A program made the position numbers and the translations under genes. Shown here one piece after another: positions 17,225-62,062 of a DNA stretch of 64,000 nucleotides. Source of the DNA: Pilasporangium apinafurcum (lineage: Eukaryota; Oomycota; Peronosporomycetes; Pythiales; Pythiaceae); assembly GCA_001600495.1 (NCBI GenBank), contig BCKE01000053.1, forward strand, positions 96,161 through 160,160. The letters are read 5' to 3'. How positions within the stretch are numbered: position 1 is the first letter of the stretch; every line of letters starts with the position of its first letter. Below the pieces are notes generated by a model that made no database searches, was not told the origin of the DNA, and saw only the letters and a program-made list of their open reading frames with translations.

Positions 17225-18551
17225 ATGATGGCGTGGAAAGGGGCTGTAATTCACGTCAGCACCAATCAGACAGATAACGAGATTGATCATTCTGCTGCGA
17301 AAGTGACTGCGGGGCTTATTGCAAATGAAGATGAAAAAGAAGAGTTAGCACCAACGACCGTTGATGAAGGAGCGGCTGCGCTCGCAGCGCGGAGGAAGAA
17401 ACAGCGCGACCATAAGCGACGCATACGTGCAAAACGTCAAGTAAGACTTTCTCCTTTGCGTTAAGTGAGACTTTGAAAGTTGGCTGAACGTTAATCGACG
17501 CATGTTATCTTCATGTGATCGATCTCTATAGAAACGTATGCTAGCGATGCAAGCGCAAGTGCATGCGCTGGAACAAGAATACGAGCGACTATACGTCAAC
17601 AATGTCTTCCAGCCGCACATACCGACTAGTCCTGAGTCCTTTGTACTGAGCAATCGATACGCGCAACTACGACAAGAGCAGGAAAAACTACGCTCGCAAA
17701 ACTCGCTCTTAAAACAGCAGCTCGCCGAACGAAACCTATTTGCGTCGATGGTTGACAGCTACCGCCAGGAATTCGAGTTTCCTGATGCGACCAGCGTGCC
17801 TCTAATTGCTACTTCCGAATCATCCTTACTGCTGACACTTACAAAATGCCATCGCATCATTCATGATTGCTGTGAGAGGATCTTTCACAATCATAAGCGC
17901 TTCAAAGGCGAACGGTTCAGCTCTGGTGCTCGTGTGTTTGGGTGGACCGATGAGCGGTACGTTGATGGCACGACGTTTCATTTCACGATGGAGAAAGTAT
18001 ACCCATTCGTCTCGGCCCAGCATTTAATGAAGAAAACCTGGCAATTGCTCACAGGGATTGATCAGACCCAAATAATTCACACGTCTGGATATATCCAGGT
18101 GCTACAGATTATTAGTGATGACATTGTCGTGTTAAGAAGACACATAAAGTATGCATCACTCAACATCGACACTATGATTGTCATGCTTGCGTTCCGATTG
18201 CAGACCGAGACGGGATACGTGGTCGCTTACACGTCCCTCGACCATGCTCATCTTCCAGTAGTGACAGATCCACTGGAGCAGAGATCGGAATTTCGTGTTA
18301 CATGGCTCGATACACTTGTGTGGCAGAGATTTGATGAACAGCCACTGCGAACGGAAGAGATTCACGTGCACAACGTGGGAGATCCGTCATTCGATTTATC
18401 AAGAGCATCAGAATGCAAAGTGACGTATGCCGGGAGCATCGATAACCACGAGCTTGACTTTGCGCGGTTTTTATTAGTCGAGATCGTTTGCATCCTCTAT
18501 CGATGGCAGCAAGCAATCACCGGGTCTACACTCTGTTGGTCGAATGAATGA
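17225..18551 (+). CDS. bZIP-like family protein, copy A
   Basis: Exons 17225-17440 and 17532-18551, 91-nt intron (GTAAGA...CTATAG), 411 residues. Exon 1 ends in a basic region RRKKQRDHKRRIRAKRQ. Exon 2 opens with the zipper-like coil MQAQVHALEQEYERLYV, continuing to about residue 155. The rest is the family's conserved C-terminal domain: SSGARVFGWTDERYVDG, YPFVSAQHLM, a beta-rich middle (IVVLRRHIKYASLNID) and RASECKVTYAGSIDN near the end. It is the most divergent of subgroup 1: the LYPxGASQC motif is replaced by FDLSRASEC. The basic region plus coil predicts dimeric DNA binding. The C-terminal domain may be START-like, binding a lipid or other ligand, which is inference from its layout. Some oomycete families annotated as M96 mating-specific look similar as I recall them, unverified here. 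Confidence 0.75.
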
Positions 18552-18988
18552 TGAAGAACTCGAGTGGAAATTTTTTATAAAATCACGCTGCAACATTACA
18601 AGACAAAAATGAACTAAAGCGCTGGTCATGATTGATTGAGCTTGGAGGATTATCAAACAGCATTCGTGGAAGATCCATTGCTATGCGTAAGTTGTATCAC
18701 GTCGGAGTTCTTGGTTGGTAGTAAGAGATTCTTCAAAAATGATGAAGGAGAAAAACTAAGTATTGTAATTGCGTAAACTGAATGGAAAGGACATTAATCT
18801 CCAAGTCGAAGCAAGTATTGATGATGTGGAGCCGATTCTGGAAAAAAAAGCACCGAAGTTGATGGGAATCTGACAGCATGTTCAATTCCAACTAAAAATG
18901 TGATCATTATGAAGAGACGATCCACCTCTGGAACACCTGAATCGATTAATCAGCAATGCCAAAGTGAGTTTGTCACTGGCATTATTTC
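18552..18988. other. Spacer between copy A and the Fanzor1 element
   Basis: AT-rich, no gene or repeat recognised. It ends at the left terminal repeat of the Fanzor1 element. Confidence 0.4.
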
Positions 18989-19258
18989 TTTAACCTTTTT
19001 TCCCCAGGCGTAGTAGAGAAAGCAGAGCTGTAGTGTATGAAGTAGACATTGTTTTATAGTGTTAGTTTCTACTGAGCCTCTCAATAGCGAAGCATATTGA
19101 ATTCAAGTATTTACCACCTCACGTCCATCTATTGAGTGTCGCTTCAACATCATCCGCCAAAACAGAAAGAACTGCAGCTTTGAGAAACAGGATAGTCAAA
19201 GGCGCCGAAAAAATCAAACCAACTACGAGGTGTCCTTGTTTTTGAACATTGTGATAAA

Positions 19259-21160
19259 ATGACATCAACGAGCGACGGTACTAAAGAGAACACCACTAAA
19301 AAGCGCAGAGCCCATCCAGATTTTGCGGAACGGAAAGTTCGACAAAAGCAAAGCGTATACACCACTGTGAAGACTGGGTGGCGAAAGTTTTGCAAAGATA
19401 AACAAATGACAGAAAAGATTGATGAGGCTGTGCGAGTTTGTTCAAGAATAGCATGTGAGGCATCCATGCTGGCGTCTGTTCATGTTCTGTGATTATTGGA
19501 AGCTGGCGAAGAACTCCCTTCATTGGATAATAACTTTTTCAATCGATGCACATCTGCAATAGCCAACTCGGCCGGCAGCGGAGAGGTTCATTCTGATTTG
19601 AAGACCAGTCTAGACCTTTACAGGACCCAACACTCTTCGGATTATGAACCGACAGAGAAGCAATCCTATATGAGTCAGATGTTGGTTATGATTGCTCAAC
19701 AAGCAAGGCAGAATTTTCAAGTCAGCAACCGATTGACATTCAACTTCCGGTTGTGTAAGTGGATGCGCCTGCAGATACGTCTTCACAACAGTGACTATTT
19801 TGAAAAGCACCAAGACAAGATAATCAAGAGTGCTGTTTCACTGCTGGTCCATGCGAGCACCCAAACTCAGCATAGCTTATCCAACCTGATCCCCGTGTAC
19901 TCCAGGTTCAAGAAGTATCCCATCCCTACTGCGGAAATTGTTTGGATGCAGGAATTATCGGATAGAGGAGAAACGAGATAGAACAGCTGCAACTCAAGTT
20001 GAAGAGCTCTCCGGAACGTCACATGCCCTTTCTCCGCACAATGCTGATAGACATACAAGCTCACGTGGATGATGGAATGAAGGGTTGCCGAGTCTGGTCT
20101 CTGCTTCCACAGAAGCACTTCAAACCCATTTTCATCAAAATCAATACTACCGTCCTGAAGGAACTTGCTAAGGCTTTGAGTGACTCTGTTGAGCTTTACG
20201 CCGACGAAGCTGAGTTATGGCACATGTACTTCAATATAGGTCTTGTGACCGAAGGCCAGCGAAAGGAGTTTGAGCACTTCATCTCGACCGACGGTATGTC
20301 AGTTGGTGTGACAATCTCCCGTCCAAAACTTCCCGCGAGAGAGCAAAAAGAGACATTTTCTCTTGAAGACCGGATCATCGGTTTAGATCCAGAGAAGAAA
20401 GAAGATCTTCACTGCTGTTGTCTACAAAGAGGAAAGCATGGCTACGCTGCAAAAACCGAAAGGAGAGAACGTGAAACATGAAGTCATCCACTGGTCGAAG
20501 GGCCGTTTCTGCAGAGAGTGCGGGTACCATAGACGAACAAAGTTGACTAAAGAGTGGATTGATGCTGAGCCTGACATCAAAACCTTCAATGAAAAGGTTT
20601 CTTCGGCGAAAGTTGGGAGCCTTGCCTCCTATTTGAGACGGGTGAGATTTTGTCTCGTGTATTTGGATCGTCTTCTTGACGTGTATTTATCAAAGAAGAT
20701 GAAGAGGCTACGATGGTCAACCTATATCCGTCGACAACAGACGTACGAGAAGGTAGTCAAGAGCCTTATAGATGGTAATAAACGAACTGTTATCGCGTAT
20801 GGAGATGCAAGTTTCACAAGCTCAGCTAAAGGCAACATTGCTATTCCTACAACGACTCTACGGAAGAAAATTGGTCTCAGATGCCGTGTTGTTGATGTGG
20901 ACGAGCTCAGGACGAGCAAGCTGTGTTGTGCTTGTCACAAAGAGATGAAAGGGTATGTGCCTGACGAAGAAATTGTCAGTGACGATCTTTATGGTGTGCA
21001 ACACTGCAAAAATAATGAATGTCATCACACATTGTGGGACCGTGACATCAACACCGCAATAAACATGTTAAGACTATTCATCGACCAAGTGAAGGAAAAG
21101 AAGAGACTCGAGGCGTCCACAAGGAAAGAGAACGAATTGGTATTCGAAATCAAAAACTGA
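19259..21160 (+). pseudogene. Fanzor1 (OrfB/TnpB-like RNA-guided nuclease), disrupted
   Basis: Starts at ATG 19259. It is broken by an in-frame TGA at 19490, a frame change near 19965-19985 and another near 20400. Across these breaks it keeps the Fanzor1 order: a Lys-rich N-terminus, a helical REC-like part (SYMSQMLVMIAQQARQNF), RuvC-I (RIIGLDPEKK, then IFTAVVYKEE in the next frame), the block WSKGRFCRECGYHRRTKLTK, RuvC-II region (VIAYGDASFTSSAKGN), a zinc ribbon (DELRTSKLCCACHK, GVQHCKNNECHHT) and RuvC-III (LWDRDINTAINML). The intact family uses a guide (omega) RNA from the element end to cut DNA. The three disruptions make this copy inactive as read. Sequencing error in one or two of them cannot be excluded, and I do not propose a repaired version. 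Confidence 0.85.
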
Positions 21161-21208
21161 GGTGATAAACGACCTCACTGGTATGATTCCGGAAACGGAT
21201 GAGTGTAG

Positions 21209-21265
21209 CCTTTATTCCCCAGGTGTTCTGTACCACAGATAATACAATGATGTGGGGAATAAAGG
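21209..21265 (+). repeat. 3' hairpin at the right end of the Fanzor1 element
   Basis: CCTTTATTCCCCA at 21209-21221 pairs perfectly with TGGGGAATAAAGG at 21253-21265, with a 31-nt loop. It lies 48 bp after the Fanzor1 stop. In TnpB and Fanzor systems the guide RNA scaffold is encoded at or beyond the 3' end of the gene, so this hairpin is a candidate scaffold or end-recognition structure. That role is inference. Confidence 0.6.
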
Positions 21266-21269
21266 TTAA

Positions 21270-21648: not shown

Positions 21649-21651
21649 TTA
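21618..21651. repeat. Short inverted repeat downstream of bZIP-like copy B
   Basis: AAGGAGAAGAAT and ATTCTTCTCCTT form a 12-bp stem with a loop of about 9 nt around the stop region of copy B. It is too far from known eukaryotic terminator types to name; I record it as a structure only. Confidence 0.5.
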
Positions 21652-22981
21652 AGTGGTTCCTCCCGTCTTCATGTTGCTTGCTTCTGAGGATTCGTTTATC
21701 CAGCAAAGCGTTGATCCCATCACGGCCTGATCCCAGCGAATAACACCACACACGATCTCCACCAGGAAGAATTTTGCCACATCGGGGTCTAGGTTGTCAA
21801 TTCGCCCACCGCATGTGACTCTGCATTGCGAGGCACCCTGTGGGTAGAGTGAAGGGAGTCCGCTGCCGTCTACCACCATAGCATCTGTTTCGGCCAAGTC
21901 CTCTTCATCAATTCGTTGCCACACAAGCGTGTTGTGCCATATGACGAAATGTGGAGCTTCACGGTCAGGTTTCTCGACTAGTTTTCCGGCGTTTTTTATC
22001 CATGAACGCGGATCAATCGATCGATAACCAACAAGGTAGCCTTTTTCAGTCTGCATGCGAAAAACGAGCTTGTCGATAATCACATCAGCATCCAGCGATG
22101 AATAATGCACACGTCGTCGAACCACAATCATGTCATCATTCACCACCTGTAGCAACTGCAATCTGCCTGATGGATAGATACGGCGCATTTTATCGTCCTG
22201 CGTTAGAATAGCCCACGTTTGTTCCATCAGATGCCGTGCCGACACGAACGGATACGTTTTCTCGAGCGAATAGTGAATTACAGTGTCATCAACATACCGC
22301 TCGTCCGTCCAGCCAAATACTCGTGCACCAGAACTCATGCATTTCCCCTTCAGAAATCTTGTGTGAAACACTGTTTGATAGCTCTCATTAACGATTCGCT
22401 GGCATTCTTCTGCGGATAATGGCTCGAATGAATTGGCAACTGGTTTCACTGGGTCTTCTTGCTCGAATGAGAGTGGTAGAACACGTGGCCGCATAAATTC
22501 GATTCGATAACTACCCAATAATGATGCAAACCGCTCTCGTTCCCGAAGAATATTCTCCAGCATCGCATTTTGTTCGCGTAGTTCTTCAACTTCTAACCGT
22601 GTTTGTCGGTATTGAATGCTCAATTCTGATGAACTGGGACTTGATCGTATGCGCTGCTGCTGGGCTACGTTGCCGACATACAAGCACCGATATTGCTTTT
22701 CTAGCTCTCGCACATGTCCACGCATCGATAAGAGGTTCATCTAAAGCCAGACAGAAAAAAAATAAAAAATTAAAGCGAACCAGACGATACGGCCATGATG
22801 TAAAATCGATCTCACTCACTCTACGTCTCGCTCGGAAGAGCCGCTTGACCTCACGTTGCTTCTTAAGCCGCTCTTCTTCTTCGTCATCAAGTTCTGAGGT
22901 GTTGGTCATTTTCGCAGCATTGTCCATCGTCGCTTCTTCCTCCATTTCAGCTCCGATAACGGATTTGAGTCCCGTCATCAT
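21649..22981 (-). CDS. bZIP-like family protein, copy B
   Basis: Exon 1 22820-22981 (ATG 22981; GTG-initiated extension rejected) and exon 2 21649-22740, 79-nt intron (GTGAGT...CTTTAG), 417 residues. Acidic N-terminus (ELDDEEEERLKKQ) leads into the basic region KKQREVKRLFRARRR. Coil: MRGHVRELEKQYRCLYV through about residue 140. C-terminal domain: SSGARVFGWTDERYVDD, YPFVSARHLMEQTWAILTQ, MIVVRRRVHYSSLDADVI, LPSLYPQGASQCRVTCGG and WDQAVMGSTLCW. It is a typical subgroup 1 member, closest in motif content to copies L and F. Dimeric DNA binding is expected from basic region plus coil; ligand binding by the C-terminal domain is inference. The upstream two-block element lies at 23018-23085. Confidence 0.8.
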
Positions 22982-23017
22982 AGTTTTCTTGAAGGTCTCC
23001 ACGCTTTGGTTTTGGAT

Positions 23018-23085
23018 TTGTCGAGAACAGTTAAACCCACCAATACCATATAACTGTAAATGCCACTGTATACCTCCCGGTAAAT
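23018..23085 (-). promoter_or_regulatory. Shared two-block upstream element, copy B
   Basis: Read on the minus strand: block 1 ATTTACCGGGAGGTATACAG ends near 23064, then block 2 TTTAACTGTTCTCGACAA at 23018-23035, then GTGGAGACCTTCAAGAA just before the ATG. The same order occurs in front of copies F and L and relics E and G. Likely core promoter or leader, about 40-100 nt before the start codon. Confidence 0.65.
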
Positions 23086-26188: not shown

Positions 26189-26205
26189 TTTTTTACCGTG
26201 TACAG
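26189..26205 (+). promoter_or_regulatory. Block 1-like element upstream of copy C
   Basis: TTTTACCGTGTACAGTG, 93 nt before the ATG of copy C, matches the core of block 1 (TTTACCGTGAGGTATACAGTG) with the GAGGTAT spacer shortened. Block 2 is not evident here. Confidence 0.5.
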
Positions 26206-26297
26206 TGATCTCTTCTCGTGAAGTACCGGGCTTCTCTACTCGATCGCTCTGATTTCTTCTACTCCTGTCACTCAATCGAAAAAGCGTGAAGAATAGT

Positions 26298-27620
26298 ATG
26301 AAAATGCCCCCAAATGATGAAGAACATGTCACCGGTATGTTTCATCTAGAAGCTGCTTTCGTGAAAAACGCACAAACTTCAAAAATTCCAGACACTAACG
26401 CCGAAGAAAAGCGACTTAAGAAACAGCGAGAGGATAAACAGCGCTTTCGAGCGAAACGAAAGGTATGTTTGAGAATATTTAATGCACTGATAGCATGCGC
26501 GTGTTCTTGGTGTTAATCCACATGAACCAACGAAACTGATTTTGAATAATCTCTCTCGTAAGTATAGTCGATCGTTTCAGCGATGCATGCTCAAGTCCAG
26601 GTATTAGAAAACGAATACAGACGCTTATACGGTGGTCAAGTTTCAGAGCAGCACGGGGCTCTATCTTCTAGTCTTCACGATTTGGATATACAGTGCCGAT
26701 ATCAAACTACAAGAGCGGAAGTTGAGAGTCTGCGTAGGCAAAATACAGTTATGACCCACCAAATTGCCCTGCGGATTCGCTTCGCGGCACTCCTGGATGG
26801 GTATCGTATGGAGTTTGAGCGCCCACAGCCTCATGGACCACCAAGAAATCTCTCATATGATTCCTTTGCGCCACTCTCCGAAGAGGAATGTGATATCATT
26901 GTTCAGAAATGCTGTGAGACAATATGTCAACCAATATCGCAGTTTCGCGGTCGACGTCTGAGTTCTGGGGCATATGTATTAGGATGGAGTGATGAACGCT
27001 GGGCTGATGATACGACATTGCAGTTTACGCTCGAGAAAGTATTTCCATTTGTCTCGGCTCGCCACTTATTGGATCGTTCATGGGCTTTGATGACACAGGA
27101 AATCCAACCTATACCGTTTATCTACAAGCCAACAGATCTTGTGGTGTTGCAGGTAGTCAGTCCAGAGAAAGTTGTGATAAGAGTGCGATATTCCTGGATG
27201 CACACTGACGTGATGGTCACGTTGCTGGTGTTTTGGATGAAGACTTCATCGGGATACATTGTGGTGTACAAATCTATTAATTGTTGCGACTCGCCAGCAA
27301 CATCGTACCAGTGTAGACAATTAGAGCAACAAAGTAATCACCATTATCATCATCGAGGAGTATGGCCCAATGTACTCGTGTGGAATCGGTTCGAGGAACA
27401 GCAATTGCTGCCGACGGACGCGTTCGTTGCAGCGGAGAGTGTGTTACCATCGCTGTATCCGATGGGAGCGGCGGAATGTAGAGTGGGATGCAGTGGACGC
27501 ATCATCACCAATTCACAAGAAACCGCCAATCTATTAAGTGTGAACATTATTTGCAATACTGTCCGATGGGGTCAGGTAATGGCAGGATCCCCATTTCATT
27601 GGGGAAGCTCTGTTGAGTGA
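26298..27620 (+). CDS. bZIP-like family protein, copy C
   Basis: Exon 1 26298-26462 and exon 2 26568-27620, 105-nt intron (GTATGT...TATAG), 405 residues. The acceptor at AAGTATAG is chosen because it keeps frame and gives SIVSAMHAQV, matching sister copies; the nearer CAG does not keep frame. Basic region KKQREDKQRFRAKRK, coil MHAQVQVLENEYRRLYG. C-terminal domain: SSGAYVLGWSDERWADD, FPFVSARHLLDRSWALMTQ, LPSLYPMGAAECRVGCSGR and WGQVMAGSPFHW. The insert around CDSPATSYQCRQLEQQSNH is longer and His-rich. It is a clear subgroup 1 member but diverged in the glycine-rich motif (ARVFGW replaced by AYVLGW). Regulatory role inferred as for other copies. Confidence 0.8.
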
Positions 27621-29537: not shown

Positions 29538-30809
29538 TCATGACCAACAAAGTGCCGATCCTGCCACGGTTTGATCCCACCGAATGATGATACAGAGTAC
29601 TTCTATCAATAGAATGCTGACAAGTTCGGATCCAGACGTAGTAGTGCGTCCACCGTAGATAGCTTTGCATACTGATGCGCCCAATGGATACAGTGATGGC
29701 AGTCCATTTTCTTCGCACACGATTGCTTCTGTTGGGGCTATTTCTTGCTCGTCAAACTTGCGCCACACCAGCCACGAGGCTTCATCATTTTGTTTAGATA
29801 ATTTGCTCTTTACTTTTTGCGCTGTATCATCAAGGGATCTATACATGACAAAGTATCCATCCTCCGTCTTCAAGCGAAACACCAGCATGGTTATGGTGAC
29901 AGCAGAGTCCAATTGCGGATACGACACATGGCGACGCACTACAACCATGTCCGAATTGATAACCTGAAGTACTGACAGGCTTGCCGACGGATACAAGATT
30001 TTAATTTCCTTGGGATCTGTCAACAAAGCCCACGTTTGCTCCATCAGATACCGTGCTGAGACGAACGGATACGTTTTCTCAAACGAAAATTGGACTGTCT
30101 GTCCATCAACACATCGTTCATCACTCCAGCCAAATATCCTTGCACCTGAGCTAACTCGCTTCCCTCTCATCGGTGTGTGCATCATAATTTTCTGATAGCT
30201 TTCTTGAATGAGACGATCGCAGTCATCTACTGATAATGGCTGAAATGAGTCTTCTTGAATTGGAAAGAGATCTATTTGATCTGCAGGTGGTAGCTCAAAT
30301 TCTACTCGATAGCCGTCAATGAGCGACGCAAAGCGATCTCGTTGCAAGAGTTGCTTCTCCATGACGGCGTTCTGCTTGCGCAACATATCAGCCTCTTGTC
30401 GAGCCGTGCGATAGTGATTAAATAATACTATCGTTGCTTGTGGAGATTCTAATTGTGCCTGCTGATGTTGCTGAGAGAGTTTATCGATATACAGGTCTTT
30501 GTATTGCTGTTTCAGGGCACAGACTTGCTCATGCATCACTACTAAGCTTTTCTGTCACATTGAGAAATGCATAGATAATAAAATTAGATGTTGGAAGTAG
30601 TAGAAACACACTGAATTTGCACATACAAACGACTTACTCACCTTTTGCCTCGCCCGAAAGCGCCGCTTCAGCTCGCGCTGTTTCTTAAGTCGCTCCTCCT
30701 CCTTCTTCCTCACTATTGCTGTTATATCCAGCGTGTCATGTTTGTTTTTCACCGAAATGTAATCACTCGCTAACTCTTCTTGACTGTCAAGAACAGCATC
30801 TCTGGTCAT
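29538..30809 (-). CDS. bZIP-like family protein, copy D
   Basis: Exon 1 30642-30809 (ATG 30809) and exon 2 29538-30551, 90-nt intron (GTGAGT...GACAG), 393 residues. Basic region KKQRELKRRFRARQK; coil begins MHEQVCALKQQYKDLYIDKL and is Gln-rich. C-terminal domain: SSGARIFGWSDERCVDG, YPFVSARYLMEQTWALLTD, MVVVRRHVSYPQLDSAVT, LPSLYPLGASVCKAIYGGR and WDQTVAGSALCW. A complete subgroup 1 member. DNA binding is inferred from basic region plus coil; nothing in the sequence identifies its target. Upstream it has a block 1-like sequence but no obvious block 2. Confidence 0.8.
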
Positions 30810-30896: not shown

Positions 30897-30914
30897 GTGC
30901 TGTGTACGGTAAAT
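30897..30914 (-). promoter_or_regulatory. Partial block 1 element, copy D
   Basis: Minus strand ATTTACCGTACACAGCAC, about 90 nt before the ATG of copy D. It keeps ATTTACCG and the CA(C)AG tail but lacks the GAGGTAT core and block 2. Assignment is by similarity of sequence and position. Confidence 0.4.
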
Positions 30915-33310: not shown

Positions 33311-33380
33311 ATTTACCGTGAGGTATACAGATCCTACACGGTAAAAGTATTAATGGCGCTGTTTAATCGTTCTTGACAAA
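33311..33380 (+). promoter_or_regulatory. Shared two-block upstream element, relic E
   Basis: Block 1 ATTTACCGTGAGGTATACAG at 33311-33330, block 2 TTTAATCGTTCTTGACAAA at 33362-33380, then GTAGAGACCTTCAAGAAT. It is kept in front of a gene that is otherwise dead. Confidence 0.65.
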
Positions 33381-33457: not shown

Positions 33458-34640
33458 ATGGGCAATACCTGTGAAGCAGCAAATGTTGCAGACAAGAACT
33501 ATGACGAAGAGCGATTGAAGAAACAGCATGAGATCAAGTACCGTTTCCGAGTACGACCAAAAAAATGTGAACTGCCTGTTGCGAGTTCATACACCTGCCA
33601 TTGCATAATCTCATAACCTCTGCTTGATTAGAACAATCGTTTGGTGATGCGCGCTCAAGTGCATGAACTAGAGAAGAAATACAAACACTTGAATGTCGAC
33701 AACATAGCCAAGCAGTGACGAGGGAGATCATCAACTTTGAGATCTTTGGATCTGATTGTCTGATGCCGATATTCATGATTGGAGGCGAAGCAGCTTCGTG
33801 TGCAGAATGGGATGATGGAGAATACTTCAGAACAACAAGAGCTGTCTGCGTCGCTTATGGATAATTATTGAATAGCATCTGAACGATCAAGAACCGCGCA
33901 ATTTTCGCTCAATAAAGGATACTCGACATAACCAGATTATGGTTCGTTTGAGCTACTACCGGCGAAGAAATGCAAGTGGATTGTGAAGTTATTGCATGGT
34001 ATTATTGGTATTCAAGAAATCCGTAAGGTAAGTGCGTGAGTTCTGATGCATAAATATTGGGATGAAGTGACGAATGGTATATTGATGGCTCAGCGTTCTA
34101 ATATTCGCTCGTGAAAGTATATCAGTTTGTCGCAATACGACATTTGATGGAACAAACATGGACGGTTCTGACTCAAATGAATCAACTGTCACGCCTGCAT
34201 TTATTAGGTAAAATGCAAATTTTCCAAGTGGTAAGTGATGATATAGCTATCATTCTACGGCACATGCATTATCCATCACTGGATACAAGCGTTGAATCAT
34301 GTTTATGGTAACCATTTGTAAGAGCTTTGATGCGTCAGAAATCCTGCTATTCCATGTAAACCGGAATGGCTCATACTTCAACTCTGCGGTCATAATACTA
34401 CCAATCAGCATCTACTTACACTATTTAGAGTAATTACGAAACTGTTTTCATCAAAATTGTGCAATTGGTTGTTAGATGACGAGACTTGCTGAGCGATTGC
34501 AATGGACTAGGCACTTGACGGATTCGCTTCTCGCTCGATCGCGTATTGCTGAGATGGTTACTTTCTAAGTTGGGAAACGTGCGCAAGTGTGGCGCATTGT
34601 ATGTGTGGTGGTCGATGGGTGAATGAACAACTGACAATTG
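33458..34640 (+). pseudogene. bZIP-like family relic E
   Basis: Exon 1 is still readable from ATG 33458, with basic region KKQHEIKYRFRVRPKK. After an intron-like stretch, NRLVMRAQVHELEKKYKHLN (the family coil) is followed by a stop at 33716-33718. Downstream, stops and frame breaks interrupt segments matching the C-terminal domain: a DEW..NGI equivalent of DERYVDG near 34065, RHLMEQTWTVLTQMNQLSR near 34138-34195, and ASCDDIAIILRH-like residues to about 34270. The end near 34620 is approximate. This is the same two-exon gene as the intact copies, disabled by many independent mutations rather than one. Confidence 0.75.
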
Positions 34641-35469: not shown

Positions 35470-35546
35470 ATTTACCGCGAGGTGCATTATACAGTGGTGA
35501 TACCGTTAAATGCCATCCGTGACTTTTTAACCGTCCTCGGTACATC
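35470..35546 (+). promoter_or_regulatory. Shared two-block upstream element, copy F
   Basis: ATTTACCGCGAGGTGCATTA then TACAGTG (block 1 with a small insertion) at 35470-35496, and TTTTAACCGTCCTCGGTACA (block 2) from 35525. The ATG is at 35586. Confidence 0.6.
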
Positions 35547-35585: not shown

Positions 35586-36865
35586 ATGGTGAGATCAAAT
35601 GATGTCAAAGAAGCCGAGATGAAGAAGGATCCTTCCAACAAGAGTGTTGCCGAAGTGGTACAACCAACAAACCATTGTCACAGTGCAGAGGAAGAACGAC
35701 TCAAGAAGCAACGTGAGATCAAACGACACTTTCGAGCAAGACAAAAAGTAAATTCAATAAACAGTTTTGTTCGATAGCGTTGTGATACTAATCTTTTGTT
35801 TTGTTTTTGGATGATTAGAGTCATTTAATGATGATGCGTACACAAGTGAAAGAACTGGAGAAGGAATACGAACGATTATATATCGAAAGTGTCGCTCAGC
35901 AACAGCAAAAGCCGCCATTAAATCCGAGTTCGCTTGAGTTGAGCGTCCAATACCAACAAACGCGAGCGGAAGTAGAGCGTTTACGCGTACAGAATGCGAC
36001 AATGGAAAAGGAGCTTGTGAAACGCGCGCGATTTGCATCATTATTGGCTTCCTATCGTATAGAATTTGAGCTTCCACGTGAACTACCATTTTCACGCGAA
36101 CAAGAGGACCGAGTGGAGACAGTCGACGATATTGATGCGGTATTATCAGCCGAGGAATGTAGTCGGATTATTGCAGAGAGCTATCAAATCATTTTTCATG
36201 CAAAGCCACCGGTAGGCAGATGCCTTAGTTCTGGCGCGAAGATATTCGGGTGGAGTGACGAACGATATTTTGATGGGACAACGCTCCAGTACTCGCTGAA
36301 GAAGGCGTATCCGTTTGTCTCTGCACATCATATGATGGAACAATCATGGGCCATCTTAACTCAGGAAGAGCGCATACAAAAGTTGTATCCATTAGCCTCG
36401 TTGCGAGTCTTACAGGTAGTGAATGATGACATGATAGTCTTTCGACGATGGGTTCGTTACGCCTCACTGGATATTGACATCTGCACTGACATGCTAGTAT
36501 TTCGTATGCAAACCAATACGGGTTACGTGGTTGCATATCGATCGATCGACCAGCACTCGAGCTTGAAGAAGTCCAATTCCCAACATTTATCAAATGAAGA
36601 TGGCCTCCCGCATCGAGTAGTGTGGAACAGCAGCTTCGAATGGCAGCGTTTTGATGATGAAGAACTTGTCGTGGCGGATACAGTGGTGGTAGCTGACAGC
36701 GAACTCCCCTCGTTCTTCCCTCAAGGTGCATCTCAATGCAGCGTAACCTGCGGTGGTCGAATCCAGAATAAGCATTATGACGTCGCAAAGTTTTTCGTAA
36801 CGGAGTTAATTTGTATCGTGATACGTTGGGAGCAAGCGATAATTAGATCGAAATTTTGTGGGTGA
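35586..36865 (+). CDS. bZIP-like family protein, copy F
   Basis: Exon 1 35586-35747 and exon 2 35819-36865, 71-nt intron (GTAAAT...GATTAG), 402 residues. Basic region KKQREIKRHFRARQK; coil MRTQVKELEKEYERLYIESV, extended through MEKELVKRARFASLLASY. C-terminal domain: SSGAKIFGWSDERYFDG, YPFVSAHHMMEQSWAILTQ, MIVFRRWVRYASLDIDI, LPSFFPQGASQCSVTCGGR and WEQAIIRSKFCG. The N-terminus is acidic and Lys-rich, as in its sisters. The ORF ends a few residues earlier than in copies B and L, otherwise no defects. Of the intact copies it has the most regular heptads, so it is a good reference for the family. Confidence 0.8.
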
Positions 36866-40253: not shown

Positions 40254-40330
40254 ATTTACCGTGAGGTATACAGTGTCTACGCTGTTGATACAGTGTTCAC
40301 AGCAGCATGGATTAACCGTTCTTCACAAGT
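40254..40330 (+). promoter_or_regulatory. Shared two-block upstream element, relic G
   Basis: Block 1 ATTTACCGTGAGGTATACAG followed by TG at 40254-40275, block 2 ATTAACCGTTCTTCACAAGT at 40311-40330, then GTGAAGACTTTCGAGAAT. Well preserved although the gene behind it is dead. Confidence 0.65.
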
Positions 40331-42229: not shown

Positions 42230-42770
42230 AATACCTACGTCGTTGACGCTAGGCGAATGACACCAGATCATCCGTGATTACTTTCATACGATTTACTAGT
42301 CAAATAAATTGGGCAGTGATTCAGTTGCGGTACAAAATATTTGATTATCACGAAAAGCGTCATATTCATGGCACAGCCTTTAAGTGTTTGTTCGAGAAAA
42401 TCTTTCCGATTATGCATTAAAATAGGGTGTGTCGTGGCCGACACGTCACTCAGTCCTTCTCTTCCAAAACCATACACGAAAGATGGGAAAAATGGTGAGG
42501 TGCGGCATCGTGAGGCGTCGTTGAACGCGATGGCGTGTCAAAGACTTGACGAACAACCGCTGAGATCGGGCCATCTCGATGCTGATAGTGCCACATAAAT
42601 AGATAACCATGCTGAATGTACAGCCCAAACAGCCATATAGTGTAAAGTACCACATAGTATGCACATAAACAGCTACAAACTGACGTTTATGACGTTCTTA
42701 TTGATCGAGATTATGTGCATCCTGTTGCAATAGGGACATGCCATGACCAACGCATCATTGTGCAACTTGA
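42230..42770 (+). pseudogene. bZIP-like family relic M, closest to copy A
   Basis: MACQRLDEQPLRSGHLDADS near 42530-42595 matches LVWQRFDEQPLRTEEIHVHN of copy A, including the DEQPLR block not found in other copies. LLIEIMCILLQ near 42700-42735 matches its LLVEIVCILYRWQQ end. The intervening sequence is badly eroded and the N-terminal half is missing. It is a 3' fragment of an A-type gene some 24 kb from copy A. Confidence 0.6.
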
Positions 42771-47644: not shown

Positions 47645-47799
47645 ACACTAGTGCATTTTTAGTGGATAGCATAATAGCAGAGGTCATGTCACTTCAGCAC
47701 ATCCAGTAGACTATATTGTATAAACACTTAATACGTTTACCATTACTTCAAGAAGACAGCTCAGCACTCGAGAATACTTGCATTCTCCTTACATAGATC
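47645..47799. other. Short spacer
   Basis: No feature recognised between the carrier stop and the first bZIP-like relic of subgroup 2. Confidence 0.4.
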
Positions 47800-48430
47800 A
47801 CCAAAGAACCATAGCCGCGGTCCAGTCACTACCTCCTGCCAGTGTACACTCATCTTGACCACCTCGACTATCAAGCACCGAGCAAACAACATCTCGTCTG
47901 TGCCCAACCGTTCGCCAAAGAGTACAAAGGCAGATTCCTACTCATTCACAGAAGTTCCAAACGCTCCAACAGTGTCAGCATTGGAATGCTCGTCATCAGA
48001 GATGAGTCACTGCATAATGTTGAGTACATTAACGCGTTTGGTCACTCTACCTCGATTAAACCCAGGATTAGTACTGCTGGACGATTTGATCAGTCAATAT
48101 GCCGACGTGTAGCCGGACTCGGTCTATATGTGAAATGCCATTATGTTGACATAAGTCTCGATGTCTGGCTGCAGCAAAAACAATCGCAGCGCACAATGAC
48201 GATAACGGGACTAATGACTTGCGTCACCGCCATCTACGAAGTAGCCTGCAGCTGACAATACTCACCAAATAGTCCTCGATATTTTGACTGTGGGAAGTAA
48301 TTCTTTGCACAAGCATTACAGGTTAATCTGCCATGAACTCGCCGTCCAAGGAATAAATAGAGCGCGTATACATGGACAAGCAGTTTCACCAGTGTTATTG
48401 CAGCTACTTTTTTCCAGCAATACCCCATTA
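47800..48430 (-). pseudogene. bZIP-like family relic, subgroup 2
   Basis: Minus-strand fragments align with copy H: AVTQVISPVIVIVRC corresponds to TVVQKINDDVLIVRC, WHFTYRPSPATRRHID to LAFRVQTETGYVIGTR in a shifted frame, and the end VHWQEVVTGPRLWFFGD to VRWDQALSGSKLRYFSED. Stops and frame shifts are frequent. Upstream (48250-48430) CNACAKNYFPQSKYRGLFG may be the segment before the conserved GW motif. Boundaries are approximate. Confidence 0.55.
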
Positions 48431-48463: not shown

Positions 48464-49891
48464 TTAGCATGTGTTGTCCTCACTGAAATACCGTAATTTT
48501 GACCCGGAAAGTGCCTGATCCCAACGCACTGTGGCATTTACAATCTCGACCAGCAATGTTGACGCGAATTTTAGCTCTGTATTGTCCAATCGTCCACCTA
48601 CAGTTGTTGTACATTCCATCGCTTCATGCGAGTTGCCAGCAAATCGATTCGCAGTTCCATCCACATCATCACTACTACTCAGCGACTGCTCGTCAACATT
48701 GAACCAATTCATGGTATTGAGTTCCATTAAATCACTCAGCACGTTTTCTGTCTTCTTATGGTTCCACTTCTTGAGCGGAGACTCCAACAACCGCGTACCA
48801 ATCACATAACCAGTCTCAGTTTGCACACGAAACGCCAGCATGTGCACAAACACTTCCGTAGTAATCGGCATGAAATGGGCGCGGCATCTGACAATCAAGA
48901 CGTCGTCATTGATTTTCTGGACCACAGTCATCTTGGTCTTGGCATTTGGGAAGCAGAGACTGTCATCGGCAGTCAATGCATGCCATAAAAGCCGCATCAG
49001 AGACGCAGCCGACGCGAATCGAAACGATTTTGAAATCGAATATTCAAAGATACTCGTCCCAGGCTGTACACCAGCGCGCTCAATGTTCCATCCAAACACT
49101 TTTGCACTGTGAAAGTGATTTTCATTTTTCTGTCCAATCGAACAGAAGATCGTCTTGAAACTGTCCAACGTGAGCTTTTGACACTCGTACTCTGTAAGCA
49201 CCGGAAATGATCGGTTCGCATCTGTATTTCCTTCGATTCTTCGTAGTTCTTCAATCACTGTAGTTAACGTCGGCGGCTGGCTGAATTCCATGTGATACCT
49301 CTCCACAATTGTTATAAAGAGATCGTATTCCATCAATTTCTTCTTCCGTTCGGCGATTTGCACACGCAAAAGTTCTGCTTCGTATTTTGCGGACGCGTAC
49401 TGGTCCGCAATGGCTACAGATGGCGTTATCATGTATGTGGCCTCCAGTTGCTGCGGTAGCTGTTGCGCTATTTTGGTGGCAAACACTTGGTCATATTCCA
49501 CTTCCAGCTCGCATACACGTTGCCACATCGCTGCAATTGTCCGCTACAAAAAAAATGTGTGTAATATATAACCATAGTCCACCAAGAAATCGATAATGGT
49601 GCGGGCGTATATCGTGATTACCTTTTTCTTGGCTCGAAAGCGCTGTTGCACCTCGCGCATCTTTCGGCGGCGTTCGGCCAGTGCGATGGCTGCATCTACA
49701 TCGGCGAGTGTTTCGGTCGCATATACTTCCTCTACTTTCCCACGTATATCTATTCTGCTATCGATAGCAGTCGAATCAGCGCCGATCGCTAACGAAAACG
49801 AGTCAGCTTCCCATTCAACTGGCGGCTGCTGTTTCTTCTTCGTCATTGCCAGCTGAAATCCTTCACAGTCCACACCAAAATGGATACCCAT
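48464..49891 (-). CDS. bZIP-like family protein, copy H (subgroup 2)
   Basis: Exon 1 49622-49891 and exon 2 48464-49543, 78-nt intron (GTAATC...TTGTAG), 449 residues. Exon 1 is longer than in subgroup 1 and ends with RRRKMREVQQRFRAKKK, where the position of the invariant bZIP Asn is Met. Coil: MWQRVCELEVEYDQVFATKI. C-terminal domain is diverged: HFHSAKVFGWNIERAG in place of SSGARVFGWxDER, FRFASAASLMRLLWHALTA, VLIVRCRAHFMPITTE, SHEAMECTTTVGGRLDN and WDQALSGSKLRYF. The overall layout and intron position equal those of subgroup 1. It lacks the two-block element in its near upstream. Role inferred: dimeric DNA-binding regulator with a possible ligand-binding C-terminus. Confidence 0.75.
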
Positions 49892-49962: not shown

Positions 49963-50585
49963 TCATAATTTATGTACCGCAGCATGATCCCAATATACAC
50001 CGACATTGATGATGTCCTCCACCAAGCAGGACGCAAATTGTAGTTCCTCGCTGTGCAATAGTTCACAGAATGTCGTTTTGCATTCCACCACACCTGGTGG
50101 GTATACTGGTGATACTTGTTTACTGGCCGTGTCGCTTTCCTCTGGATCCAATGACTTACTGCTAAATAGCTCGACAGAGACATTGAAATTCTTTCTAATA
50201 ATCGTACCTGTTCTCGCATGGTGATGTCTCCTCCTCTGATTATGCGGTATTGTGCTGTCACCAATCATAATTTCTGAACTCAGCGTAAAATGTCCATGGA
50301 GAAGAGACAAATGATGCAAAAAAATGTAAGGTTGTGGTCGCACCTTCTTCACACGGAACTGACGCTTGACCTCACGCATCGAGTAACATCATTGCTGCAA
50401 TGTACCACATACATCAGCGCCGGTAGTGACGTTAGCGCTTCTGTCTTTTTCATCCAATGCTGAGATGCGAATTCTTTCACCCAATCCGCTTCGAAAGATA
50501 TGAAATCTCTTGGAAGATGAGAGTGACTAGTACAAATTAATGTAACATGCGAATAGGACTGCACATTGCTCCGAATATCATTCAT
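49963..50585 (-). pseudogene. Rearranged bZIP-like relic I (subgroup 2)
   Basis: Order on the minus strand is scrambled. A middle-domain piece (WVKEFASQHWMKKTEALTS, matching FASAASLMRLLWHALT) comes first at about 50470-50400. The basic region MREVKRQFRVKK follows at 50380-50343. Then, with coil and middle missing, comes the C-terminal end: VSPVYPPGVVECKTTFCE, SEELQFASCLVEDIINVGV and YWDHAAVHKL, to 49963. It is a chimera or nested deletion product of two copies. It cannot encode a normal family protein. Confidence 0.7.
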
Positions 50586-50589
50586 AGCT

Positions 50590-50975
50590 GTAGACTTTCA
50601 AGTGCAGCCTGGTGACTGGCTGTCATCTATCTCACTTGTGAATTTGCTACCACCTTGCGACATCAATTTCAGTCGAAGCGCGTGACCAAATCTCATTACA
50701 AGTTCAAGATGCTACCAAAGCACAAGATGGAAATGATTGAAGGAAAGATGATCGAATGTGGAGAACACTATGCAACAAAGACTTATTCTCAGTGTTGGAG
50801 AAGCAACCACGTGATGAAGTGCCAGAAAATATTTCAATGTTCTCACTGCAACTTTGTCCTTGATAGAGATGTCAATGGTGCTAGAAACATTTTTCTCAAA
50901 AATGAACATTTATTCATGGAGTCCAGGTGTCAGAGATGACTACTCCACGGTTGTCTAGTCTTAACTTTTGCTAGT
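50590..50975 (+). pseudogene. Fanzor2/TnpB-type C-terminal relic 3
   Basis: A 94-codon open piece at 50655-50939 reads HYKFKMLPKHKMEMIEGK, MIECGEHYATKTYSQCW, then KIFQCSHCNFVLDRDVNGAR and NIFLKNEHLF. This is the CxxC zinc ribbon followed by RuvC-III (DRDxNGARN) of IS607-type TnpB and Fanzor2. The first knuckle is SQCW instead of SxCG, so the ribbon has lost a Cys. Only the C-terminal quarter remains, without a start or the other RuvC motifs. It is inserted between bZIP-like relic I and copy J. Best preserved of the Fanzor2-type relics in the window. Confidence 0.75.
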
Positions 50976-51108: not shown

Positions 51109-52498
51109 TCAGCATTGCTGGGTGTGTCGTTCGTTCCCATAGAAACACAAGCGTGCACCCCCAACAGCGTTGTCCCAATGCACGTTCACTTGCAAAATTT
51201 CGACCAACAGGGCTGCCATCAGTGTCATCTCGTCGCTGTCAAAGATCCCGCCAAACGTTGCGGTGCATTTCATCGCACCGAAAGGACACATTGACGCACC
51301 ACTGTCACATTCATCACTATAGTCTTCCTGCTCTATTTCTTTGAAGTTGTCATCAATCAGTGGCAACTCTTTAAACACAAACCATTGTCGCATCTTCAAC
51401 CATGTGACCTCGTTTGATTCGGATCGAGTTAATGGATCTAACGCTCGCGCCCCAATTACATATCCATTTTCCGTCTTGACGCGATACACAAGCAAGTACA
51501 TCACAGCATGGGCGTCAGTGTCGGTCGGTGACACACAGACGCTCCGTCGAATGACTGCAATATCTGGACTAATAACCTGCAGCAGCTCGTTTTCAACTGT
51601 CGGTTGGGCTTCCCACATTTTTGCGTCGGTTATGACAAAGTGCCACATCCGCTCCATATGAAACTGTGCCGACGCGTAAGGGTACGACTTGGACATGGAG
51701 TACTGAAAGGTGGTGCCACTCATGGAATGATGATCCACTTTCCACCCAAACGCCTCCGCATCCACACAGAACCGTGGTTCTTTCCATTTGGTTGGATGGA
51801 GAATGTTTTGGAGACTATCGCGAATGATTCGGTGGCAATCGTCCACGTCTAGTGGTTTAAATGATGATGATGGAGGTGGTTCCGCTTCTGGTTGATGCAG
51901 CTGTTTGTCCACCTGTAGTTTTTCCATTTCTATCTGCAAAGCAGTGGGGAGCTCAAATTCCGGTTGATATCCGGCAACAAATGCCTTGAAGAGATCGTAT
52001 TCGTGCACTTTTTGTTTTGTTTGTGCGATTTCCACGCGTAACGTCTCTTCTTCCTCATACATGGTCCTGAATTTGTCGAATAATGCAACTGACTCAAAAC
52101 TCGGGGTTTGCGATCGTTTGGCGACAGTGATAGTGAACAGCCGCTTGTATTCTTCTTCTAATTGCTGTACTTGGTCCCGCATCCCCTGTACCTTTCCCTA
52201 CATTACAACAAATAGCCAACTCACTTTTTGGCTTTCGACTACCAGATATCTATTGCATCATGGATGGTGTGTTTACCTTCTTTTTGACACGAAATCGCTG
52301 CTTAATCTCTCGAGCTCGCCGCCTCCGCTCCTCCAGCGTCTTTCTGGCAGCGTGGTTTTGTTTCTTGTCTTCTTCCTTCTCTGTTTCATCATTCGTCACT
52401 ACATCACACTCCATCTCCAGCAGTGGCTCCTCAGTGTCGACCAAAGCAGTAACAGCGCCTTCCATTGTTCCCCATTCGACCGTTTCCTCCTTCGCCAT
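51109..52498 (-). CDS. bZIP-like family protein, copy J (subgroup 2)
   Basis: Exon 1 52277-52498 and exon 2 51109-52197, 79-nt intron (GTAAAC...ATGTAG), 436 residues from ATG 52498. An in-frame ATG at 52552 would add 18 hydrophobic residues; the inner start fits the sister copies better. Basic region ERRRRAREIKQRFRVKKK has Ala at the Asn position. Coil MRDQVQQLEEEYKRLFTITV. C-terminal domain: VDAEAFGWKVDHHSMSG, YPYASAQFHMERMWHFVIT, IAVIRRSVCVSPTDTDA, ASMCPFGAMKCTATFGG and WDNAVGGARLCFY. It is a clear relative of copy H. No two-block element upstream. Confidence 0.75.
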
Positions 52499-52552
52499 CG
52501 ATGCTTGTGTTTCTTTTGCATAAAAGAGAAATTTACATAATAAAGGAAGCAT

Positions 52553-53083: not shown

Positions 53084-53084
53084 A

Positions 53085-55828: not shown

Positions 55829-56115
55829 AGTGAGGAACAAACAGAAAGAGGAAGGCGTGCTTTGACACGACTAACAGAAAAATCAAGACTAACAAGATGA
55901 CCGTGAGTCTTTGATGGCGGTTGTTCAGCGACGATCGAGACAAGACACACCAACAACAAAGTGAAAGTATGGTAATGTTCGTGTCAATATATATTGGGTG
56001 GCTGTAATCCCCTTTTGCACTCGTTCACTGTCTTCTCAGGTTCGCTTTGGTTTAACATGTTGGTATGAAATGCATGTATGCATTGCTGAGTTTTCGCTTT
56101 CTTTGGTCCAGCTTT

Positions 56116-57624: not shown

Positions 57625-58489
57625 GACTGTGTGCGTTCTCACCGATGTATGGTTTTGAGTGACTGACCAACAAAAAGCGAAGAACCGATGTTGCCGTTAA
57701 GAGTTGTTCTTCAATTATGTGGGACGAGGTGTTTTTCCTCTTTCAGTTGGAGAAATGCATGACACCTGAGAGTTGTACACTCGTTTGGCCAGGCCCATTA
57801 TTGAGTATAAGTTCCGTAAACTCTAAAAATGACTGAACATTCGCATCCTGATTGATCTCTAGTTTCGCCGACCACCTACTTGAATAACTGTATCAAAGTG
57901 ACAACAAACGATTACTCTGATTAAAGCGCATGTATCCATTTACCCATAGCGTTCTATGCTTAAATAGTACTAGCGTATCCAAGACGATGATTTGTCATTC
58001 CAGAAGCCATTTTGATGGGAGCAACGCATAATCAGATAGTACTTTTTTTTTGTGAAGTGCTCCTTTCTGTTGCATCATCACAAAATTTAGATCTGATGCT
58101 GTGTGCACTATTACCAAATCACTAATTGCGGATTTTGCATTTCTCCAATGAATGGCAAATAAGCAACTGCGTAGCTCGATCTTCACGTGGTGGGGTCCAA
58201 AGTGTCACTGTGTAACGTAATGTGAGGGATATCGAAGGGTTTTTATTTTGTACGAAGCAGGAAGTCACAATACTAGCTATATTTTCTAACACAACACAAT
58301 TTTAACTCTGCTATACGAAGCGAAGCTTTCTATTTATAATCAGTCTCGCTTATAACGCTCAAATTCACCACTTCTTCCAGGTCAACTGTCATGCACTCGT
58401 TGAAATGCAATACTACCCTAGGTCAACGAAAGATTACTTTGGATGATTCTTCGCCTGGTATTCCCCTTCTCTACTACGTCAACTCCAAT
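57625..58489. other. Spacer, no gene
   Basis: About 860 bp, AT-rich. It contains the promoter of the DEP-PH-GPx gene at its left side and nothing else recognisable. Confidence 0.4.
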
Positions 58490-59190
58490 GAAGCTTCGGC
58501 CTTGTTGGGATTTGATCCCAACGAATCACGATAAAAATGATTCCACCGTGAATAACTTGATAATCTGGGTTATCTAATCATCCGTCACATGCACTGCATT
58601 GCAAAGTACCATCAAGTCAAAGCAATGGGAACTCACTGCTATCGATCAGCACAAGATATGTCCGACAAAGCTCCTCTTTGACCAGCGATTCCATAGCAGC
58701 GTATTGTACCAGATCACTCGATGTATATTGTCATACTCAACTGAGATTGCTGAAAACAGAGTGTTGGATTTCCTGAAGCGTGATCTAATCGGTCGATATG
58801 CAAAAAGGTAGCCTATGTCGATGTATAAGCAAAACACAAGCATGCAAAGTATCACATAAGCGTCCAGCGACGGCTAATGCGAGTAGTGATGCGCCACCGA
58901 CCCACGATTATGTCGTCACTCACCATCTCTAATACTAGCATTTTGTCAGACAGATGGAGATAGCAGATTTGGCTCCCTTGCGTTATCATCGCCCACTTCT
59001 GCCTCATTAGATACCGCACCGGAGCGAACGAATATGGTTTCTCGTGCTAGTACTGAATCGCGATACTGTTGATAGACCGCTCGTCGCTCCAATCAAAGAT
59101 GCATGCACCTGTACTGATGCCTCTGCTTGTTGGAACTTTTGAGTGGAAGATCGAATATCCTACCAATAACTCACCATTTCGAAGAGCTTG
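58490..59190 (-). pseudogene. bZIP-like family relic K
   Basis: The minus strand matches the C-terminal two-thirds of copies B, D and L in order: remnants of the SSGARxFGW(S/T)DER region near 59075-59120, RxLMRQKWAMITQ-like residues near 58985, the VVRR strand near 58890-58910, LVQYAAMESLVKEEL-like residues near 58680-58700 and the IRWDQ end near 58500-58530. Stops and small deletions are numerous. The coil and basic-region exon are missing. Confidence 0.65.
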
Positions 59191-60603: not shown

Positions 60604-61950
60604 TCAGTCCTCGCATGGTGGTTCTCTTTCGCGCTCTCTGTTTGCATCAGAGGTGTGTGTTCCCCAGCAAAGCTTCGATCCCGCTACCGCCTGATCCCAA
60701 CGGATCACGGTAAACACGACTTCAACGATAAGAAACTTGACAACATCACTGTCTCGAGTATCAATTCGTCCACCGCACGTCACTCTACATTGTGAAGCAC
60801 CCTGAGGATAGAATGAGGGTATCTCACTGTCGTTGACCATGACTGTATTTGTCTCGACCAGCTCTTCATCATCGAGACGTTGCCATACTAGAGTGTCATG
60901 TGAGATCACTTTTTGTGGAGCTTCAAATTCAACTTGGGTTGCTGAAGATAGAGAGTTTGCCCTCCTCCAACGTGGTTCAATGGAGCGATACGCGACAAGG
61001 TAGCCCTTGTCAGTCTGTAAACGAAACACTAGCATGTCGATCATCACATCAATATCTAAAGACGGGTAATGTACGCTCCTTCGAACCACAATCATATCAT
61101 CACTCACTACCTGCAATACCTGCATCCTCCCGGAAGGATGGAGATAATGAATTTGACTCACTTGCGTTAGCATCGCCCAAGTTTGTTCCATAAAATGTCG
61201 CGCCGTAACGAAAGCATACGTTTTCTCGAGCGAGTAGTGCAACATGGTGCCATCAATAAGCCGTTCATCACTCCAGCCAAATACTCGCGCTCCAGAACTA
61301 ACACGTCTACCCTTCGGTATCCTTGGATGGAAAATTGCTTGGTAGCTCTCACAAACAATGCGACGGCATTCCTCGAAAGATAATGGCGCAAAGATTCCGT
61401 CTGGTTTCGTTAAGCCTTCTTGCTCAAATAAAAAGAATGATCTCGCGTCTGGAAGCTCAAATTCCAAGCGATATCCATCCAGTAGCGACGCGAATCGCTC
61501 TCTTTTCACAAGCTCTTTCTTCATCATCGCATTCTGGGAACGTAGCCGCTCAACTTCTATCCGAGTTTGTCGGTATCGGGCGCTCAACGTCATGGAACTG
61601 GGACTTGATGATCGTACCTGTTGCTTTTTAGGCATATTACCGACGTACAGTCGTTGGTATTGATTCTCCAGTTCTTTCAACTGTGCGCGCATTGCCAGTA
61701 AAGAACTCTAACAAAGCAGGATAGAGACAGGAAAAACGTAACGTTAACATTAATTAGATTCTCATGTCCTAACAGCTGTCACACTCACCTTCTGTCTCGC
61801 ACGGAAGCGCCGTTTATCCTCGCGCTGTTTCTTGAGTCGCTCTTCTTCTTCATCATCACCATTTTCTGATGTATTCGTCGAATCAGAGGTAGTTTTGCTT
61901 ACCATTATCCCCCCCATTTGATCCTCTTTTACAGCATTCGGTCCTATCAT
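60604..61950 (-). CDS. bZIP-like family protein, copy L
   Basis: Exon 1 61789-61950 (ATG 61950) and exon 2 60604-61707, 81-nt intron (GTGAGT...GTTAG), 421 residues. Basic region KKQREDKRRFRARQK, coil MRAQLKELENQYQRLYVGNM with a further heptad stretch VERLRSQNAMMKKELVKRE. C-terminal domain: SSGARVFGWSDERLIDG, YAFVTARHFMEQTWAMLTQ, MIVVRRSVHYPSLDIDV, IPSFYPQGASQCRVTCGG and WDQAVAGSKLCW. The extreme C-terminus adds a charged tail (DANREREREPPCED). It carries the full two-block element upstream and is the best-preserved copy on the right flank of the cluster. Confidence 0.82.
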
Positions 61951-61994
61951 TATTTATTTGCTCTTTGAAGGTCTCCACACTCTAACTTCTGGAA

Positions 61995-62062
61995 TTGTCA
62001 AGAACGGTTAAATTGTATGGGTAATAACTTAACCGCAGTGACACTGTATAGCTCACGGTAAA
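61995..62062 (-). promoter_or_regulatory. Shared two-block upstream element, copy L
   Basis: Minus strand: block 1 TTTACCGTGAGCTATACAGT at 62042-62062, block 2 TTTAACCGTTCTTGACAA at 61995-62012, then GTGGAGACCTTCAAAGAG before the ATG at 61950. Confidence 0.7.

Follow-up and report, generated by a model that had tools for sequence, protein, structure and literature searches.

A cluster of bZIP-like genes with a predicted START fold and a private promoter box in the oomycete Pilasporangium apinafurcum

In the plant HD-Zip proteins of classes III and IV, a DNA-binding domain is followed by a zipper and then by a START domain. In two class IV factors, ATML1 and PDF2, the START domain controls protein turnover and influences the dimers (PMC10126025). 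Among oomycetes, the closest described systems are expansions of basic leucine zipper (bZIP) proteins in which the invariant asparagine (Asn) of the basic region is replaced. The 71 bZIP candidates of Phytophthora sojae include proteins with Cys, Arg, Val, and other substitutions and form tandem clusters (Ye et al. 2013, PMC4046829), and in P. infestans the same position carries Cys, Val, or Tyr for Asn and many of the genes are stage regulated (PMC11267843). Here we describe a cluster from the oomycete Pilasporangium apinafurcum whose eight open genes code for proteins combining a bZIP-like half, in which Asn is mostly replaced by glutamine (Gln), with a C-terminal domain predicted to adopt a START fold. 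The window, i.e., the whole 64,000-nucleotide stretch analyzed, comprises positions 96161-160160 of contig BCKE01000053.1 (C53 below); coordinates count from its first nucleotide, and genome-wide results refer to 36.5 Mb in 136 contigs.

The window copies resemble the P. sojae set in both features of this known kind of oomycete expansion, namely, the replaced Asn and the tandem duplicates. The P. sojae proteins, whose named classes are N-R, C-R, R-R, V-R, N-K, and "other," have a mean length of 382 amino acids (aa), with introns mostly of 60-90 bp and a single PAS domain as the sole extra domain reported; 48 of the 71 genes are intronless (PMC4046829), whereas all eight window genes have an intron at a fixed place. 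The main text of that study has no mention of Q-R, Gln, glutamine, START, or lipid, and the available portion of the P. infestans account describes neither a Gln class nor a START domain (PMC11267843). The P. sojae proteins may possess the same START fold. Our search of the open-access literature for an oomycete or stramenopile bZIP with a START domain found nothing related, the wider results being judged in part from listings. The advance made here is likely to be the recognition of the START fold and the Gln class inside a known kind of expansion.

The initial annotation of this DNA had described eight genes that are open after splicing and that use both strands. Both points stand: eight intact exon 2 open reading frames (ORFs) are each preceded by a short exon 1 ending in a basic stretch of the type LKKQREDKRRFRARQK, and all eight two-exon models are open (393-454 aa), three on the plus strand and five on the minus strand. 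The intron is in every case of the GT-AG type, in phase 0, 71-105 bp long, and placed directly after the basic region; these splice sites are predictions made without transcripts, and alternative open splices are possible for C, D, J, and L. The cluster extends from 17225, the ATG of gene A, to 62062, the outer edge of the promoter box of gene L.

17225..18551, plus strand: gene A, exon 1 17225-17440 (basic region), exon 2 17532-18551 (coil and START)
21649..22981, minus strand: gene B, exon 1 22820-22981, exon 2 21649-22740
26298..27620, plus strand: gene C, exon 1 26298-26462, exon 2 26568-27620
29538..30809, minus strand: gene D, exon 1 30642-30809, exon 2 29538-30551
35586..36865, plus strand: gene F, exon 1 35586-35747, exon 2 35819-36865
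48464..49891, minus strand: gene H, exon 1 49622-49891, exon 2 48464-49543; Met at the Asn position
51109..52552, minus strand: gene J, exon 1 52277-52552, exon 2 51109-52197; Ala at the Asn position
60604..61950, minus strand: gene L, exon 1 61789-61950, exon 2 60604-61707; exon 2 served as the input of structure prediction

The C-terminal motifs that had been called conserved are so to different degrees, with SSGARxFGWxDER occurring exactly in four of the eight copies (A, B, D, and L) and as a near match in F and C, and ASQCRVTCGG occurring exactly only in B and L. An AlphaFold model built with the eight window sequences reached a mean predicted local distance difference test (pLDDT) score of 64.8, and the model of L exon 2 built with 31 paralogs reached 78.9. 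In the latter, a short helix, a loop, and a long helix are followed by a domain in which strands, a pair of helices, and further strands precede a long C-terminal helix, and the mean pLDDT is 86-97 in every 10-residue block of residues 111-240; the disordered C terminus that had been named as the outcome speaking against a START-like fold was thus not predicted. Foldseek searches of the PDB returned the START domain of CERT as the top match (E value 1.3e-8; probability 1.00; template modeling score to the target 0.56), followed by BmCBP, which we take to be a START protein, STARD4, STARD10, STARD5, and the PYL receptors. At E values of ≤1e-3, there were 90 PDB matches with the 31-paralog model and 72 with the first model, and the 50 listed of the 90 are all START domains (BmCBP included) or instances of the related PYL receptor fold. 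Among viral structures, the four best matches are named START proteins. The likeness to CERT, STARD4/5/10, BmCBP, and PYL lies in the predicted fold, whereas sequence identity to these START and PYL structures is 7-15% among the matches listed. The START-like fold proposed by the initial annotation is therefore borne out at the level of the model, in which the C-terminal domain has the predicted helix-grip START fold.

The N-terminal half, which had been annotated as a shared bZIP-like basic region and coil, could be tied to canonical bZIPs by profile comparison: hhalign of 18 basic-plus-zipper stretches of the family (15 from the Gln clade described below and three from outside it) against six canonical bZIPs of the same genome gave a probability of 79.7 and an E value of 1.5e-5 over 45 ungapped columns. 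A second line of evidence comes from a paralog on contig C21 (L064), a single-exon protein of 599 aa that retains Asn, is recognized by Pfam bZIP_1 (7.9e-8), matches a profile built from the eight window genes across the coil and START regions (E value 1e-14), and aligns without gaps to the window copies in the basic region. Two members read on contig C26 are likewise N-type, single-exon proteins, with C-terminal parts that match a window protein at E values of 4.7e-5 and 3.0e-4. Because a profile match to canonical bZIPs is thus joined by a paralog that Pfam recognizes as a bZIP and that shares the C-terminal domain, the sequences point to a common ancestry of the window copies with canonical bZIPs.

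Within the basic region, the invariant Asn position is occupied by Gln in A, B, C, D, F, and L, by Met in H, and by Ala in J. The basic residues around it and the Arg eight residues after it are retained, and the N-x7-R/K signature as such is absent. Gln is found in 16 of the 18 members of its clade, on five contigs (13 of 15 in the common alignment, plus L010, L012, and L017 by eye; no clean phase 0 splice was found for L010). In the putative zipper, Met, Leu, and mostly Leu follow one another every seven residues; a variable loop, a second helix, and then START come after it. It is only in this layout of DNA-binding region, zipper, and START that the window proteins resemble the plant HD-Zip III/IV proteins, which have a homeodomain in place of the bZIP and belong to another lineage; no homeodomain was matched at E values of up to 10 in the eight spliced N-terminal parts. 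Since the lineage differs, the likeness is most simply convergent. Pfam bZIP_1 has 22 matches in the genome, 18 of them over the cut-off and eight on C21 at 420-442 kb; Asn is retained in all eight of the Pfam bZIP_1 proteins whose sequence was read.

Further clusters matching the family C-terminal region lie on C21 at about 420-448 kb and on C26 at about 186-302 kb. One C21 and two C26 members were read over their full length, and all three are single-exon bZIPs that retain Asn. Another C21 bZIP, L067 (422760-422882), has a stop codon just past the basic region, which marks either an intron or a dead copy.

Apart from the open genes, the initial annotation had counted about six dead copies, with mobile-element relics between copies, and both observations hold. 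A search of all six frames with the 31-member family profile (the eight window genes included), combined with a tblastn map, gave 29 profile rows at E values of up to 10. Besides the eight genes, these comprise 17 rows spread over six decayed stretches and another four (E values of 5-11) that were discarded as chance. Only the matches of relics E and G reach the 5' part. The 42-kb relic is weak by profile (best row E value 0.045) but matches A by tblastn at 1.7e-13, and the 49.98-kb relic has a tblastn E value of 3e-5. The last two features listed are TnpB/Fanzor-type pieces; a Pfam scan of four other open intergenic pieces, and of two just 5' of the 20.4-kb element, found no mobile-element domain.

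33635..34302, plus strand: relic E, pieces in two frames, 8 stops in 206 codons
40598..41542, plus strand: relic G, exon 2 nearly full length, 12 stops in 310 codons (15 over a longer stretch)
42319..42763, plus strand: relic 42k, mainly the C-terminal part, nearest to A
47797..47925, minus strand: relic, C-terminal fragment
49975..50268, minus strand: relic, C-terminal fragment
58440..59154, minus strand: relic 58k, 5' part missing, three frames, of the B/L/F clade
50616..50936, plus strand: TnpB/Fanzor-type zinc-ribbon relic (Pfam Cas12f1-like TNB, E value 8.3e-14), between H and J
20438..21157, plus strand: second TnpB/Fanzor-type zinc-ribbon piece (E value 1.9e-5, just below the Pfam cut-off), between A and B

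A search with one window protein found 68 family stretches genome-wide, a count that includes relic pieces and is a lower bound on places. They are concentrated on C53, where all lie inside the cluster studied here, and on C36, C1, C12, and C26. In a tree of 31 selected members, an 18-member Gln clade has a support of 100/100; A, B, C, D, F, and L group together (97/91), as do H and J (99/96), and neighbors on the same contig tend to group elsewhere as well (five on C12 and a pair each on C36 and C1). Four of the six relics could be placed, with E, G, and 58k joining B/L/F (97/97) and 42k joining A (93/89). In free trees, H and J group with genes of other contigs, and a single clade of all eight window genes is not rejected (approximately unbiased test, P = 0.25). 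The copies thus fall within one family, and the grouping into unrelated families that had been named as a counterindication did not appear. The cluster is best explained as a local offshoot of a large superfamily of bZIP-START regulators.

By the Nei-Gojobori (NG86) method, synonymous divergence (dS) is 1.5-3.2 and the ratio of nonsynonymous to synonymous divergence (dN/dS) is 0.16-0.25 in the nine of 28 gene pairs for which they could be computed, the other 19 being saturated; these ratios indicate purifying selection on the window genes. Since synonymous sites are near or at saturation, the turnover is old and no recent burst. The family that had been described as expanding is large, as the 68 stretches attest, but not recently grown, with a dS of at least 1.5 wherever computable and only about 60% identity between B and L, the closest pair in the window. 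Judged from these sequence comparisons and from the local grouping of genes and relics in the trees, the birth-and-death turnover proposed by the initial annotation is the process at work: local, old, and selectively maintained.

On C12, the inverted neighbors L016 (623030-624106, plus strand) and L018 (625717-626811, minus strand) have 100% DNA identity in two successive 60-bp bins close to the C-terminal end, are 39-78% identical in the bins before this tract, and are unrelated past the stop; the identical tract is likely to reflect recent gene conversion. Peptide patterns of L matched 13 prokaryotic-genome and six viral-contig stretches, none of which is a relative by tblastn, and a hand-made coding pattern had no match genome-wide.

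A feature shared upstream of several copies is a promoter box.

23064..23084, minus strand: box of B (TTTACCGGGAGGTATACAGTG)
62042..62062, minus strand: box of L (TTTACCGTGAGCTATACAGTG)
33312..33332, plus strand: box 5' of relic E, two mismatches
40255..40275, plus strand: box 5' of relic G, matching the pattern exactly
26192..26207, plus strand: box of C, short-spaced form
35471..35496, plus strand: box of F, long-spaced form
30899..30913, minus strand: partial box of D, with the TTTACCG core (first half)

With up to three mismatches, the 21-bp box TTTACCGTGAGGTATACAGTG occurs six times in the whole genome and not once in the reversed control. Four of the six occurrences are in the cluster, 5' of B, L, relic E, and relic G, and the two elsewhere have three mismatches each; by this comparison, the box appears private to the cluster. 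It starts 103-115 bp 5' of the ATG in B, C, D, F, and L. The search turned up none up to 400 bp from A, H, and J, which argues that the box is dispensable for the general function of the protein. The looser pattern of the two half-boxes, TTTACCG-N(0-14)-TACAGTG, occurs five times in the window versus 0.01 expected, and genome-wide has 10 matches versus 17 in the reversed control; its matches outside the cluster are therefore attributable to chance, and only their place speaks for the F and C forms. In B, L, E, and G, which were chosen for one spacing, the box is 90% identical, versus 29% for the 80 bp before and 34% for the 89 bp after it, values away from the box that are underestimated because they were counted ungapped.

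In simulations, the stop load of relic G requires a neutral distance of about 0.2-0.25 or more, at which an untouched 21-bp box has a probability of about 0.015-0.005; the two-mismatch box of relic E is not significant alone (0.21 at a distance of 0.2), and the boxes of both relics were discovered by pattern search. That the box has persisted before these dead copies is suggestive only. A second box common to B, L, E, and G, TTTAACCGTTCTTGACAA, was also considered; four of its eight matches with up to two mismatches lie in the cluster, and at three mismatches it has 35 matches genome-wide versus 41 in the control, and we claim no specificity for it.

On balance, we favor the view that these proteins are ligand-tuned gene switches in which the START pocket controls a DNA-binding bZIP dimer. 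From an architecture of N-terminal stretch, Asn-replaced (mostly Gln-type) basic helix, short zipper, loop, second coil, and START fold, we infer that a dimer would form via the coils, that the Gln-type basic helix may touch DNA with altered specificity or affinity, and that the pocket may take a hydrophobic ligand, such as a lipid, a sterol, or a similar compound. Such a ligand could then alter stability, dimerization, or DNA binding, which would make each paralog ligand tuned. By analogy with the plant HD-Zip proteins, the pocket probably senses a hydrophobic ligand and gates the DNA-binding dimer.

Several observations weigh against this reading. In the eight exon 2 proteins, Pfam finds no family above the cut-off and its START model (PF01852) has no match at E values of up to 10; PF01852 has 19 matches in the genome, none of them on C53. 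A profile comparison of the 31-member family with five of the 19 START domains recognized by Pfam is weak (probability 15; E value 0.0017; 58 columns). On that probability, START homology by sequence was dropped, and the assignment is made at the level of the fold, which sequence profiles barely detect. No Pfam family, bZIP included, is above the cut-off in the eight spliced N-terminal parts either, bZIP_Maf (E value 0.45; A) and bZIP_2 (E value 1.2; J) being the only weak bZIP rows listed in a scan in which HMMER filters conceal most weak matches. The conserved zipper comprises only about three heptads before the variable loop interrupts it, and the support for the clade of A, B, C, D, F, and L vanishes in a 20-row tree. 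Finally, DNA motifs were obtained in P. infestans for one of seven Cys-type and one of five Val-type bZIPs, versus 11 of 17 Asn-type ones (PMC11267843).

The last point bears on an alternative that we regard as unlikely yet deserving of weight, in which the Asn-substituted copies have lost specific DNA binding and instead pair with canonical N-type bZIPs or titrate them in a dominant-negative manner, while START determines how abundant the proteins are or where they reside. All eight window copies have lost Asn (to Gln, Met, or Ala); Pfam bZIP_1 proteins, as counted above, coexist in the genome, those that were read being N-type, and members on C21 and C26 match the family C-terminal domain. 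Substituted P. infestans bZIPs, moreover, mostly failed on protein-binding arrays, for which the authors suggest heterodimers or blocking (PMC11267843). Titrators of this sort are harder to reconcile with the retention of the surrounding basic residues and of the Arg eight residues on, and the constancy of Gln, seen in 16 of the 18 members and across five contigs, suggests that it serves a specific function and is no mere loss. Slightly more doubtful is the idea that the proteins are DNA-binding bZIPs of altered specificity whose START fold is a ligand-free structural or protein-interaction module: the distance in sequence from the START domains that Pfam recognizes in this genome would fit, whereas the nearest PDB matches are ligand-binding START and PYL domains and the domain is still recognizable across diverse paralogs. 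That the basic region and coil are unrelated to bZIP, a chance charged coil ahead of a START protein, is highly improbable and disfavored; it would account for the lack of above-cut-off Pfam bZIP matches in the window copies but not for the ungapped profile match to canonical bZIPs or for the Pfam-positive paralog with the same C-terminal domain. Extending the switch that we prefer, one may speculate that the copies are lineage-specific, ligand-gated "Gln-class" bZIP-START receptors whose private promoter module is possibly read by the receptors themselves (autoregulation) and that dead copies keeping the module are transcribed or serve as decoys titrating the regulator; this bolder version we hold to be a long shot.

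Among the neighboring genes, a 502-aa ORF with a C-terminal glutathione peroxidase domain (56116-57624) lies inside the cluster span, and a gene with a heat shock factor-type DNA-binding domain (8713-9900) lies just outside it. Mitochondrial-carrier genes that are alike by eye (46715-47644 and 54887-55828) stand on either side of the H/J part, and the duplication there may thus have taken in more than the bZIP genes. A link to the mating-specific protein M96 was considered and dropped, M96 being described as a low-complexity extracellular protein (PMC12054190).

The cluster exemplifies local birth and death, with a short promoter module that appears to outlive the divergence that erases its surroundings. 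The Asn-substituted bZIP expansions of oomycetes are a known puzzle, most of those of P. infestans having given no DNA motif (PMC11267843). If proteins of the P. sojae and P. infestans type share a START domain behind the zipper, part of this puzzle would be explained, because such proteins may need a ligand or a partner before binding. The coupling of a DNA-binding zipper to a putative lipid sensor is an apparent convergence with the plant HD-Zip III/IV proteins.

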